From the NCBI GenBank assembly GCA_017999435.1, contig JAGNLV010000003.1:434001-498000 (forward strand): a stretch of DNA of 64,000 nucleotides, given 5' to 3'. The stretch comes from Candidatus Zixiibacteriota bacterium. Its GTDB lineage: Bacteria > Zixibacteria > MSB-5A5 > GN15 > FEB-12. Positions 51,918-55,693 of this stretch are shown piece by piece (positions within the stretch are counted from its first letter, which is position 1; every line of letters begins with the position of its first letter). The notes under the pieces are model-generated. The model saw only the letters and a list, made by a program, of their open reading frames with translations. It was not told the origin of the DNA and ran no database searches. The position numbers and the translations under genes were made by a program.

Positions 51918-52406
51918 CTACTCTTTGCCGAGTTCTTTGCGGACGGCGCTGACGAGGCCGCCCTGCTCGACGATCCGGGCGACGCGTTCGGCATACTTGC
52001 CGAACGGAAATTCCTGTTCGCCGCGGAGGACGGTTCCTTTGCGCAGGTTCACGGAGATGCGGTCGCCCTCGCTCAGCTGCCCGCGGAGGTCGGCGGTGAC
52101 GAGGGCGAGACCGGCGTTGACGGCGGGGCGGAAGAACTCGCGGGGGAAGCTGCGGGCGATGACGCAGCGGACGCCGGCGGCGAGCAGGGCGCTCGCGGCG
52201 AGCGCCGGTTCGGGTCCGCCGCCGAAGCTGTCGCCGGCAATGAGAATCGCTTCCGCCGGGAGCTTCTTGTCCGCCAGCGCGGGGCATTCCCGGAAGATGC
52301 TCTTGACGATGTCGGCCCGTTTGCCCCCCCGGCACGGGGCCGGACAGATGTGGTCGGTGGTGATGTTGTCGCCCGCGACGACGACGGTCCCGGTGATTTC
52401 TCTCAT
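51918..52406 (-). CDS. LeuD-like swivel-domain protein with degenerate substrate loop
   Basis: A 162-aa homologue of the small subunit of isopropylmalate/homoaconitate isomerases. The N-terminal VAGDNITTDHICPAP and later RCVIARSFPREFFRPAVNAG follow LeuD closely. But where enzymes have FGCGSSREH, whose Ser-Ser-Arg loop binds substrate carboxylates, residues 61-69 read FGGGPEPAL. The Arg, both Ser and the Cys are all gone, so normal catalysis is unlikely. It lies 11 nt downstream of a DNA methyltransferase gene on the same strand; the only LeuC-like gene nearby, also degenerate, is divergent at 54068. It may form a non-enzymatic heterodimer with that protein. GAGG precedes ATG 52406. Confidence 0.82.
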   Translation of the reverse strand: MREITGTVVVAGDNITTDHICPAPCRGGKRADIVKSIFRECPALADKKLPAEAILIAGDSFGGGPEPALAASALLAAGVRCVIARSFPREFFRPAVNAGLALVTADLRGQLSEGDRISVNLRKGTVLRGEQEFPFGKYAERVARIVEQGGLVSAVRKELGKE

Positions 52407-52417
52407 GGCAGCCTCGC

Positions 52418-53377
52418 TTACCGCGCGCACGCGCTCGCCGCGTGTCTTTTCAGTTGCAGTTCCCGCTCGAACGGGTGCCCGGCCTGCCACCCGGTGCGGC
52501 CCTCGGCCCGGTAGCGTTCGAGGCGGCGGATCGTGATCTCGGCGAAAATCGGATCGATGTCGAAAGTCACACAGGAGCGCCCGAGGCGCTCGCAGGCCAC
52601 CAGGGTGGTGCCGGCGTGGGAAAAGAAATCGGCGACCAGCTCGCCGGGGCGCGACGAGGCGAGAACGATGCGCTCGATCGCCGCCAGCGGCTTCTGGGCG
52701 TAGCAGCCGTTCACGTTCTCCTCCCGGCGGTAGAACACCTGCTGGATGTCGACCCAGACGTTGCCGGGCCGGATCGTCTCCCCTCTCCCCCGCTCGGTGT
52801 TCTCAGTGCGTTTTCCGCCGACGGTTTTGTAGTACCCCCGGAGCGTCTTGGGAATCCCGGTGTACTGGACGGAAAAGGGCGGCTCTCCCTTGACGTAGTA
52901 GAGCAGTTCCTGCCGCACCGCCATCCAGTTGCGCTGGGTGCCGTAGCCGCGCTGGTTGCGCATGGTGATGAGCGAGCGCGAGGCGAATCCGGTCGCCGCC
53001 ATCATGGCCATCACCTGCGGGAGCGGCTGGAAGTGCCGGTCCTGGTCGGCGCCCAGCCAGATGTAGAGGGCGGCGGCGTCGGCCAGGATCGCATCGGTGT
53101 TGTCGACCCAGGCACGGCACCAGTTCGCGTAGGCCTCGGGCGGCAGTTTCTGTCCCATGACGAGGTTGTACGGCGGGTCCTGCACCGCCAGCGTCGCGCG
53201 GCGCGCGCCGAAGAGGCGGCGCACAAAGGCGCGGTCGGCCGCATCGCCGCAGGCCACCGTATGCCGTCCCTCCGGGTCGCACCAGACCTCTCCCAGGCGC
53301 AAACGGCAGTACGGCAGCAGCGCCGGGCGCACCGGGCTGACTGCCGAATCGAGGCGGGCCAGCAGACGGTAATGCAT
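52418..53377 (-). CDS. Site-specific DNA methyltransferase (N6-adenine or N4-cytosine, beta-type order)
   Basis: 319 aa. The catalytic motif IV is DPPYN (67-71) in ATLAVQDPPYNLVMG. The SAM-binding motif I is near the C-terminus as ADFFSHAGTTLVACERLG (F252-SHAG). This IV-before-I order marks the beta class. The middle ~170 residues would hold target recognition (LITMRNQRGYGTQRNWMAVR, GNVWVDIQQVFYRREENVNG). No restriction endonuclease is adjacent, so it is an orphan or regulatory methyltransferase. It shares a transcript with the LeuD-like gene and diverges from the HIT gene over a 190-nt spacer. ATG 53377 was chosen as the first family-like Met. Confidence 0.88.
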   Translation of the reverse strand: MHYRLLARLDSAVSPVRPALLPYCRLRLGEVWCDPEGRHTVACGDAADRAFVRRLFGARRATLAVQDPPYNLVMGQKLPPEAYANWCRAWVDNTDAILADAAALYIWLGADQDRHFQPLPQVMAMMAATGFASRSLITMRNQRGYGTQRNWMAVRQELLYYVKGEPPFSVQYTGIPKTLRGYYKTVGGKRTENTERGRGETIRPGNVWVDIQQVFYRREENVNGCYAQKPLAAIERIVLASSRPGELVADFFSHAGTTLVACERLGRSCVTFDIDPIFAEITIRRLERYRAEGRTGWQAGHPFERELQLKRHAASACAR

Positions 53378-53530
53378 GCGGGGATGATGGGAGGGTCGGG
53401 TGGGAGCGGCAACTAAAACATCGCCCGCCGGCGCGGTCGATAACAGCGGGGGCGGAGCGCGGAGAAAGACGCCGCTAACCATCTAAACGACAGCAGCTTG
53501 TGAAAATGTTGATATTCCCCGGGGCGGGGC

Positions 53531-53559
53531 TTGGCAGTGTGGGTAATTTTGTTTATTCT
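53531..53559 (+). promoter_or_regulatory. Promoter of the HIT/HTH-LeuC-like pair, 8 nt from the ATG
   Basis: TTGGCA (53531-53536), 17-nt spacer, TATTCT (53554-53559). ATG 53568 follows after 8 nt with no Shine-Dalgarno site: a probable leaderless message. It lies in the 190-nt spacer between the two divergent gene pairs. Confidence 0.65.
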
Positions 53560-53567
53560 ACACCATC

Positions 53568-54068
53568 ATGGAAGACAATGCGATATGGGCCCCCTGGCGC
53601 GCCGGGTTCGTGCTCGGCAAGAAAGAGGACGGTTGCGTCTTCTGTAACCGCATCGCGCACGACCGCGACTCGGTCGAGAACCTCATCGTCTTCCGCGCCC
53701 GACTCAATGTCGTCATCCTCAACAAGTATCCCTACAATCCCGGCCATGCGCTGATCGTCCCGATCCGCCACCTGGGCGGGCTCGACGAGCTGACGGTCGA
53801 CGAGGCCAACGAGTTTTTCCAGTTGACGCGCGACGCGGTGCGCCTGATGGAGCGGGCGTACCAACCGCAGTCGTTCAATTTGGGAATGAATCTCGGGCGG
53901 GAATCGGGGGCGGGAATCCCAGGGCACGTTCACATGCACATTGTCCCGCGGTGGGTGGGGGACACGAATTTCATGCCGGTGATCGGCCGGACCAAAGTGC
54001 AGTCGGTGCCGCTCGACGCCGTGTACGAGCGGCTTCGGAACGAATTTGTCGAGGAGTTCGGAAGCTGA
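53568..54068 (+). CDS. HIT family nucleotide hydrolase/phosphorylase
   Basis: A 166-aa HIT-superfamily protein. The His triad is HVHMHIVPRW (H120, H122, H124); an N-terminal CVFC pair (23-26) is the zinc half-site common in the FHIT/Ap4A group, and NPGHALIVPIRHLGGLDEL follows. Such proteins cleave dinucleoside polyphosphates or nucleotide adducts. The C-terminal extension (GDTNFMPVIGRTKVQ) is typical of the bacterial Ap4A-phosphorylase-like subgroup. Its stop overlaps the start of the HTH-LeuC-like gene (TGATG), so the two are translationally coupled. Confidence 0.94.
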   Translation: MEDNAIWAPWRAGFVLGKKEDGCVFCNRIAHDRDSVENLIVFRARLNVVILNKYPYNPGHALIVPIRHLGGLDELTVDEANEFFQLTRDAVRLMERAYQPQSFNLGMNLGRESGAGIPGHVHMHIVPRWVGDTNFMPVIGRTKVQSVPLDAVYERLRNEFVEEFGS

Positions 54069-55693
54069 TGGCGCGGCGGCGCAAGATCCCGACCAAGGGG
54101 GAGCTTCTGCAGCTGCAGAAGCTGTACAAGACCGACGAGAAGATCGGCGAGCGTCTCGGCGGCGTGCCCGCCTACCTCGTGGCCTACTGGCGGCGGAAGA
54201 AGAATGTCGCCAAGCATTCGGTGCCGAAATTTTCAGAGGCGGAGGTCCGGAACCTGTGGGAGCGGTTCGGGGATGACGACCGGTGCGGGCTGGAGCTGGG
54301 GATATCGAAGGCGGCGTTCTACAACTGGCGGCGGCGGTACGGGATTCGGGAGAAGCCGCCGTTTCTGAAGCTCGAGCAGCTCGAACTCAACCTTCCCGGC
54401 CTCAAGCAACGCGGCCACGCGGTCAGTTTGCTCGGCAAGCAGTCGGCGGCGCAGAAGATCATCGCCATGGCGGCGGAGCGGGAGAAAGTGGAGGTCGGCG
54501 AACTGGTCGTGGTGCAGCCGGATGTGACGATCGCGCACCAGGACGCCGCGGCGGTGGTGCGCGCTTTCAAGGAGATCGGGACCGAATACGTGTGGAACCC
54601 GGCCCGGATTTCAGTCGCCCTGGCCCGGTGCAACGACAGCGACGGCTGCGTGTCGGCCGCCGACCACCGGCTCGTCCGCGAATTCGTCCGGCGCCAGGGG
54701 ATCCCGAAATTCTACGATGTTTACGAGGGCGGCTGCCACCAGCTGGTGGTCGAGGACGGTCTGGTGGCGCCGGGCCAGTTGGTACTCGGCAGCGACGTCT
54801 ACGCCACGAGTTACGGGGCGCTGTCGGCGTTCGCGGCGGCGATTTCGCCGGCCGAAATGGCGACCGTCTGGGCCACCGGGCGGATCTGGCTGCGCGTCCC
54901 CCCCACCATCCGTATCGACGTCACCGGCCGCCGCGCGCGCGGCGTCTACACCCGCGACGTCATCCTCTACCTGCTCAAGCGGCTCGGTCCGCAGCGGGCC
55001 GACTACGCGGCGATCGAGTACCAGGGACCGGCCGTCTCGCACATGAGCATCAGCGAGCGGGTCACGCTCTGCAACGCCTCCGCCGACCTGGGCGCAAAGG
55101 CGGCGATCTGCCCGTTCGAGGCCGTGACGCGACGATATCTCAACGCGCGCGGCGGCGGGCGCTACCAGGCGATGCTCTCCGACAAGGACGCCGAATATGT
55201 CGAAATGTTTCAGATCAACATCGACCAGCTCACGCCCCAGATCGCCGGGCCGAACAGCGCCGCCGAAATCCACGCCGCGCGGGAGCTCGACGGACTCTCG
55301 GTGCAGATGGTGGTGATCGGGGGCGGTACGAACGGCCGCTTCGACGATCTCCGCGTGGCCGCGGATATCCTCAAGGGCAAACAGGTGCACCAGGACTGCC
55401 GGGTGCTGGTGGTCCCGGCCTCCCGCTCGGTGTACCTGGAGGCGCTCAAGAAAGGATTGATCCGCGTGTTTGCCGAGGCGGGGGCGGCGGTCACGGATCC
55501 TTCGGCGGGGCTGAACGCCGCGCGGCTGCCGGAACAGGTTGCGCCGGGGGAACGATGCCTGGCCAGCACCAACACCTCGTTGTTCCCCCGGGCGGCCGAG
55601 CTCGGCGCGGAGCTGTACTTGTGCTCGCCGGCGACCGCGGCCGCGTCGGCCTTGAACGCCCGGATCACCGACCCAACGCCGTACGTGCGGTAG
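54068..55693 (+). CDS. LeuC/aconitase-family pseudoenzyme fused to two N-terminal helix-turn-helix units
   Basis: 541 aa. Residues 11-46 (KTDEKIGERLGGVPAYLVAY) and 57-93 (DDDRCGLELGISKAAFYNWR) are two helix-turn-helix units of transposase/homeodomain style, absent from known LeuC enzymes. From about 115 onward the sequence follows the isopropylmalate isomerase large subunit (KFYDVYEGGCHQLVVEDGLV, VLGSDVYATSYGALSAF, TNGRFDDLRVAADILKGKQV, GERCLASTNTSLFPR). All three [4Fe-4S] ligands are replaced: the SCTN Cys is G420, and the GCxxC pair is A480/N483. GADSHT has become GSDVYA. It cannot be a normal hydro-lyase; a DNA-binding, metabolite-responsive role is the best inference. Confidence 0.85.
   Translation: MARRRKIPTKGELLQLQKLYKTDEKIGERLGGVPAYLVAYWRRKKNVAKHSVPKFSEAEVRNLWERFGDDDRCGLELGISKAAFYNWRRRYGIREKPPFLKLEQLELNLPGLKQRGHAVSLLGKQSAAQKIIAMAAEREKVEVGELVVVQPDVTIAHQDAAAVVRAFKEIGTEYVWNPARISVALARCNDSDGCVSAADHRLVREFVRRQGIPKFYDVYEGGCHQLVVEDGLVAPGQLVLGSDVYATSYGALSAFAAAISPAEMATVWATGRIWLRVPPTIRIDVTGRRARGVYTRDVILYLLKRLGPQRADYAAIEYQGPAVSHMSISERVTLCNASADLGAKAAICPFEAVTRRYLNARGGGRYQAMLSDKDAEYVEMFQINIDQLTPQIAGPNSAAEIHAARELDGLSVQMVVIGGGTNGRFDDLRVAADILKGKQVHQDCRVLVVPASRSVYLEALKKGLIRVFAEAGAAVTDPSAGLNAARLPEQVAPGERCLASTNTSLFPRAAELGAELYLCSPATAAASALNARITDPTPYVR

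Follow-up and report, generated by a model that had tools for sequence, protein, structure and literature searches.

In the lineages of Zixibacteria where its active site has degraded, a two-subunit hydro-lyase of the LeuCD/HacAB type has the look of an enzyme on its way to becoming a regulator of genes. The pair considered here is encoded in the window, that is, the 64,000-nucleotide stretch of contig JAGNLV010000003.1 from a Candidatus Zixiibacteriota bacterium that was analysed as a whole, and consists of a small gene, pseudo-LeuD, and a large partner at 54068-55693 on the plus strand, a protein of 541 residues that we denote HTH-LeuC because of its helix-turn-helix (HTH) head. We consider it likely that HTH-LeuC/LeuD, derived from such a hydro-lyase, was a bifunctional enzyme and regulator and has become a pseudo-enzyme transcription factor. 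The conserved function of the pair would then reside in the putative DNA-binding domain, a feature that the preliminary description of this DNA did not mention, just as it gave no strand for the small gene. The parts of the pair are as follows.

51918..52406, minus strand: pseudo-LeuD, small subunit with the swivel fold and a lost substrate loop (open reading frame of 162 residues; TIGR02087, P. horikoshii LeuD, AlphaFold/Foldseek)
52200..52226, minus strand: former substrate loop of pseudo-LeuD, FGGGPEPAL in place of FGCGSSREH/Q (alignment)
54068..54382, plus strand: N-terminal domain of HTH-LeuC, two three-helix HTH-like units, near-invariant in the phylum (Pfam, AlphaFold, entropy)
54440..55693, plus strand: LeuC/HacA-type domain of HTH-LeuC, with none of three Fe-S cysteines kept, 9 of 14 catalytic residues lost and the LeuC fold retained (profiles, alignment, model)

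Judged by profile, sequence and model matches, the membership of pseudo-LeuD in its family is beyond chance. Specifically, the protein matches the TIGR02087 (LeuD/DmdB) profile with E=2.6e-28, at a score of 98.7 bits that lies below the curated cut-off of 108.95, and is matched by P. horikoshii LeuD with E=1.4e-18. Its AlphaFold model has a mean pLDDT of 91.8 and retrieves LeuD proteins as the top Foldseek matches, the best being 3vba (TM 0.86), so that the retention of the swivel fold, previously claimed from the letters alone, is borne out by the predicted structure. Both features that define the family, the swivel fold and the overall sequence similarity to LeuD, are therefore present; the Ser-Ser-Arg substrate loop FGxGSSR that marks the enzyme is absent. 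The alignment shows FGCGSSREH/Q or FGIGSSRES in the LeuD/HacB enzymes; pseudo-LeuD has FGGGPEPAL at this place, residues 61-69 (52226-52200), which is precisely the replacement that had been reported.

The large partner tells the same story. Its LeuC/HacA domain (approximately residues 125-541) scores 394 bits against NF001614, the cut-off being 385, is matched by MJ0499 with E=8e-90, and keeps the LeuC fold in the model (4kp1, TM 0.91 by target length). The three cluster cysteines are gone, IGSCTNGR having become IGGGTNGR, and NPSCSACMG having become DPSAGLNAA, and only 5 of the 14 catalytic residues are left, as expected from the active-site decay that had been proposed for the product of the gene at 54068. 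Taken together, the loop, the cysteines and the models support the earlier view that both subunits have decayed at the active site and kept their folds.

In front of this domain, HTH-LeuC carries a head of about 105 residues, in which the AlphaFold model places two HTH-like units with helices at 10-20/23-29/35-44 and 57-67/70-77/81-90. The Pfam HTH matches of the window protein are weak; among 12 members taken from across the phylum, HTH_Tnp_1 was matched in 11 and HTH_23 in 10, with a best E-value of about 1e-5, each of these matches being individually below the gathering cut-off. A search for a sequence relative of the head in the PDB found none. The fusion of an HTH to a second domain, by which one-component regulators are recognised, thus fits HTH-LeuC by way of sub-threshold Pfam matches and two trihelical units in the model.

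The locus around the pair comprises two further genes.

52418..53482, minus strand: N6/N4 DNA methyltransferase (PF01555), upstream of pseudo-LeuD on its strand; the true start may be nearer 53377 (Pfam)
53568..54068, plus strand: HIT-family protein (PF01230), with which the HIT > HTH-LeuC operon opens (Pfam, synteny)

The stop codon of the HIT gene, the product of which we take to resemble the HIT proteins of the Ap4A phosphorylase type, overlaps the ATG of HTH-LeuC by one base in the window, and a HIT-family gene lies directly upstream of HTH-LeuC in nearly all loci. In family f1, to which the window belongs, the small gene is found outside the LeuC operon; the window and genome G011 have it behind the DNA methyltransferase, in divergent orientation to HIT > HTH-LeuC. 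In 26 of an initial set of 61 loci, this position is occupied by a methyltransferase that belongs to the same cluster, and in many f1 genomes an N6/N4 DNA methyltransferase is divergent to the HIT operon even where a LeuD-like gene is missing.

HTH-LeuC is present in at least 111 of the 132 Zixibacteria genomes, a count composed of 83 loci that were read and 28 further genomes recognised by the HTH profile. Its apparent absence from f5, f7, f9, f10 and f17-f19 had to be rejected, since the HTH profile search found the fusion there; it had been overlooked because the canonical LeuC copies of these families scored higher. When 84,980 species were scanned for the HTH domain, 82 relatives emerged, and the 80 of these that were listed all belong, judged by titles and contig matches, to Zixibacteria or to oddly titled bins; some known members escape the two peptide patterns used in the scan, so that its sensitivity is limited and absence of HTH-LeuC outside the phylum is indicated rather than established.

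The degree of decay, expressed as the number of the 14 catalytic LeuC residues left in each HTH-LeuC, varies widely. All 14 are present in f6, f12, f13 and f14 (one copy being unreadable at two positions), where LeuC and LeuD share one operon and the LeuD loop is intact. Between 2 and 11 are left in f4, 3-8 in f16, 5-6 in f15, 0-7 in f1, 3 in RBG-1, 0-3 in f2, none in f3, and 0-2 in the examined members of f9, f10, f18 and f19; in members of f9, f10 and f19 whole loops have been deleted. The HTH-less LeuC copies of Zixibacteria all retain 14 of 14. In a LeuC tree built without the catalytic columns, the HTH-LeuC proteins included form a single clade (SH-aLRT 100), so that the fusion arose once; three changes are required to explain the degraded state, of which strongly supported branches force only one. 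Since this tree lacks the members from f5, f7, f9, f10 and f17-f19, the losses are probably more numerous. Two of its rows (L229 and L231) are HTH-less proteins mislabelled as HTH, which leaves the degraded-state counts unaffected.

Where, then, does selection act? The entropy of the HTH columns is about 0.5-1.0 bits per column in the intact and degraded sets alike. The active-site segments, the most conserved part of the intact proteins (0.09-0.3 bits), are the most variable part of the degraded ones (2.1-2.9 bits). Pairwise comparisons point in the same direction: between degraded proteins, dN is lower in the HTH than in the LeuC domain (e.g. 0.008 v 0.05). For the intact pairs G101/G102, G105/G107 and G108/G109, the HTH changes at least as much as LeuC (e.g. 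dN 0.054 v 0.015). Hence, by these alignments, constraint has shifted away from the active site and onto the putative DNA-binding head. Even so, the degraded LeuC domain does not drift freely: its frames are open, and its pairwise dN/dS is 0.07-0.17, or 0.07-0.12 for the pairs with dS below 1 (G032/G033/G034, G076/G077, G114/G115), which excludes neutral gene death of the large subunit.

Retention of the LeuC and LeuD folds, together with purifying selection on the LeuC domain, might also be expected if the degraded proteins kept a new activity in an altered pocket, for instance as a cluster-free lyase, with the HTH being accessory. There is precedent for such a change, as the aconitase superfamily includes members with altered cluster and substrate, such as aconitase X, a branch with changed cluster chemistry (PMC8184944). 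However, a new activity would be expected to leave new conserved residues, and the former active-site segments are instead the most variable ones and differ between genera; moreover, whole loops are lost in the f9, f10 and f19 members. We consider this possibility highly improbable. For the same reason, namely that no part of the protein varies more than the old site, a conserved ligand bound there appears unlikely. A regulator built on the decayed scaffold is the reading that we prefer.

The small gene has fared differently. In the families where the two genes are linked (f1, f4, f6 and f12-f16), GSSR is kept in all 10 LeuD copies beside an intact large gene and lost in all 12 copies beside a degraded one, the latter coming from f1, f4, f15 and f16. 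This perfect concordance is broken by f10: in two genomes (G094, loci L024/L339, and G095, loci L025/L340), an intact LeuD lies directly behind a degraded HTH-LeuC of the 0/14 type, so that the state of the gene cannot in every case be told from linkage. Given that a sister f10 genome (G096, locus L211) has an intact HTH-less LeuC elsewhere with no adjoining LeuD, the f10 LeuD probably works in trans. In addition, a small gene is found at just 12 of the 72 degraded loci, or at 8 of the 50 with good flanks. Because it is missing from most degraded loci, and in view of the f10 exception, the best reading of the window LeuD appears to be that of a decayed, dispensable former partner kept by some genomes and not that of one half of a co-opted obligate pair. 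Shared repurposing of the two subunits, as the preliminary description had it, is thus unsupported in so far as an obligate pair is meant. The observation that it had named as contrary evidence, a small subunit of this kind paired with an intact LeuC, is indeed made in f6 and f12-f14; the LeuC of these families, however, is orthologous to the HTH fusion discussed here, in intact form, and so represents the ancestral state, which leaves repurposing unrefuted.

It could be argued that the small gene is a dying relic devoid of any present role, with HTH-LeuC alone functioning, a view compatible with the main explanation. The loop would then have disappeared as a consequence of the loss of the enzyme, and the copies that survive would have decayed to different extents. 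Apart from its scarcity at degraded loci, this would account for the poor matches of the copies in L079 and L095 and for a divergence faster than that of the large gene (mean distance 1.68 v 0.95). A relic would not be expected, however, to maintain open frames in 12 genomes of several genera, conserved FG, FxR, N and GGL positions and a fold predicted with high confidence, nor to keep its frame in f1 despite the new, divergent gene order. Furthermore, once the HTH is controlled for, the distances between small genes still track those of the LeuC domain (partial r 0.51, reached in 1 of 2000 permutations, across the 12 degraded genomes); dS is saturated in all pairs of degraded copies. The relic view is a possible but somewhat unlikely one, and the earlier conclusion of repurposing without gene death stands for the large subunit by its dN/dS, with neutral death of the small one being, on the strength of its open frames and of the partial correlation, no more than unlikely. 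We therefore continue to treat pseudo-LeuD as a former partner that some genomes retain.

As to why catalysis could be dispensed with, the genomic context offers a clue. LeuA (TIGR00973) has no match in the genome that carries the window and is absent from nearly all genomes tested; a link to the leucine pathway was accordingly rejected, and the intact HTH-LeuCD probably acts as an aconitase or homoaconitase and not in leucine synthesis. The window pair provides the only LeuC and LeuD of its genome, which encodes, as other members of the superfamily, a one-chain aconitase (657 residues, motifs intact) and an AcnA-type protein. A one-chain or AcnA aconitase is found in none of the 11 genomes with an intact HTH-LeuC and in nearly all degraded genomes of f1-f4 and f15-f16, the exceptions being incomplete genomes such as G018, as well as G112 and G115. 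Since intact and degraded genomes cluster by family, this association represents few independent events; the loss of catalysis is most simply explained by another enzyme having taken its place.

The course of events can be envisaged as follows. A heterodimeric hydro-lyase of the LeuCD/HacAB type would be ancestral, and its large subunit would have gained the tandem-HTH head in the ancestor of Zixibacteria, resulting in an enzyme that was also able to bind DNA. By their sequences, the f6 and f12-f14 proteins would still be bifunctional, with the catalytic site and LeuD intact and encoded in one operon. In the majority of lineages, catalysis would have been taken over by a one-chain or AcnA aconitase (f1-f4, f15-f16) or by an HTH-less LeuC copy (f9, f10, f17), upon which the Fe-S and substrate sites could be lost, with selection maintaining the DNA-binding head on an aconitase-fold scaffold. 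The end point would be a pseudo-enzyme one-component transcription factor expressed behind the HIT-family gene. The small gene, as the former catalytic partner, would have lost its loop in parallel and would be disappearing from most genomes; where kept, pseudo-LeuD most likely docks on pseudo-LeuC and tunes its shape or oligomerisation. The orthology, decay, selection, synteny and predicted fold of the pair are observed; DNA binding, transcriptional regulation, docking of the subunits and enzyme take-over we infer from sequence.

The relation of the pair to the isopropylmalate isomerases and homoaconitases of the LeuCD/HacAB type (MJ0499, MJ1003, MJ1277, MJ1271; structures 4kp1, 4kp2, 3vba, 2pkp) is close, in that fold and sequence of both subunits are alike and the f6 and f12-f14 orthologs lack no catalytic residue and share the order of LeuC and LeuD. 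Unlike those enzymes, HTH-LeuC has an added tandem-HTH N-terminal domain, and the window pair lacks the Fe-S cysteines and the Ser-Ser-Arg loop, has only the 5 of 14 residues, and belongs to a genome without LeuA. Enzyme-derived bacterial regulators with a DNA-binding head, including both active and inactive members, are exemplified by the ROK repressors, MocR/PdxR, BirA and PutA. These combine an enzyme domain with a DNA-binding domain and provide a functional analogy, but they are built on other enzyme folds, and the hypervariable old active site of HTH-LeuC does not suggest a conserved effector pocket. To our knowledge, no enzyme-derived regulator with a DNA-binding head is based on the LeuC/aconitase fold. 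A search of open papers for aconitase or LeuC with an HTH, or for Zixibacteria with aconitase, returned nothing relevant; going by these open papers, HTH-LeuC would be the first aconitase-superfamily protein with a dedicated DNA-binding domain, although it may have been described elsewhere. The aconitase X proteins differ in being enzymes, and PMC8184944 makes no mention of a helix-turn-helix or DNA-binding fusion. Regulation by aconitase-superfamily proteins as such has precedents, namely IRP1/cytosolic aconitase (PMC6884552) and mycobacterial AcnA (PMC7527780), which are RNA-binding regulators when not catalytic. In those cases, a working enzyme loses its cluster and binds RNA; in HTH-LeuC, by contrast, a dedicated HTH head is fused and catalysis has been lost permanently, in the sequence itself.

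Routes from enzymes to transcription factors are usually inferred from their end points. In Zixibacteria, a single orthologous gene with a conserved location provides a living series, from the intact enzyme with an HTH, through partial loss and full loss with loop deletions, to the loss of the partner. If our interpretation is true, the regulator is carried by nearly the whole phylum, and the intact f12-f14 proteins make joint catalysis and regulation by one protein directly testable.

A candidate target for a DNA-binding protein lies in front of the operon.

53476..53500, no strand: palindrome TAACCATCTAAACGACAGCAGCTTG, 15.6 bits, 92 nt ahead of the start codon of the HIT gene and within the divergent promoter region (motif search)

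The f1 operons share an upstream palindrome, TAACC-N2-TTG-N5-CAA-N2-GGTTA, with a log-likelihood of 208 v 46-47 in shuffles; genome-wide, ten f1 genomes contain 120 such sites v 18 for controls. A half-like AAACC-N2-TTG occurs in the f4 operons, at a shorter distance from the start. In most Zixibacteria genomes, the palindrome YAAYNNNYTRNNNNNYARNNNRTTR is several-fold more frequent than its reversed self-complementary control (loci L247-L326), and the enrichment is seen in nearly all families whatever the fusion state, barely so in some intact genomes. As HTH-LeuC itself is nearly universal, this spread speaks neither for nor against it as the protein that reads the site. For autoregulation of HTH-LeuC through the palindrome, the f1 figures looked strong, but the same enrichment is found in other families, which carry the fusion too, in a more degraded form. 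A more far-reaching proposal would be that HTH-LeuC is a phylum-specific core global transcription factor that reads TAACC-N2-TTG-N5-CAA-N2-GGTTA at tens of promoters per genome, that the lineages with an active enzyme are bifunctional and ancestral to the others, which arose by loss of catalysis, and that pseudo-LeuD, where surviving, serves as a regulatory lid; this we regard as rather unlikely.

The indifference of the palindrome to the fusion state, owing to which no specific target is established, also bears on the nature of the head, the best HTH matches of which are to transposase- and terminase-type models. Both points would be compatible with an N-terminal domain that tethers the protein to DNA or RNA, HTH-LeuC being a structural nucleic-acid-binding protein uninvolved in gene regulation. 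Yet the head occurs as a single, near-invariant copy per genome at a fixed place behind the HIT gene, which, as far as sequence can tell, would better fit a sequence-specific regulator, so that a purely structural role seems distinctly improbable next to the transcription factor that we favour.

Among the genes downstream of the palindrome, a secreted protein (L247/L271/L296) and a TetR-like regulator (L292/L306) recur across genera; the palindrome also precedes genes of IscA-like and Rrf2-like type (L307) and a DnaA-like gene (L308). Finally, many HIT operon promoters (L069, L070, L075, and 53540-53570 in the window) have a -10-like TATTAT/TATATT box some 6-12 nt before the start codon, and such proximity to the start codon suggests leaderless transcripts in Zixibacteria.
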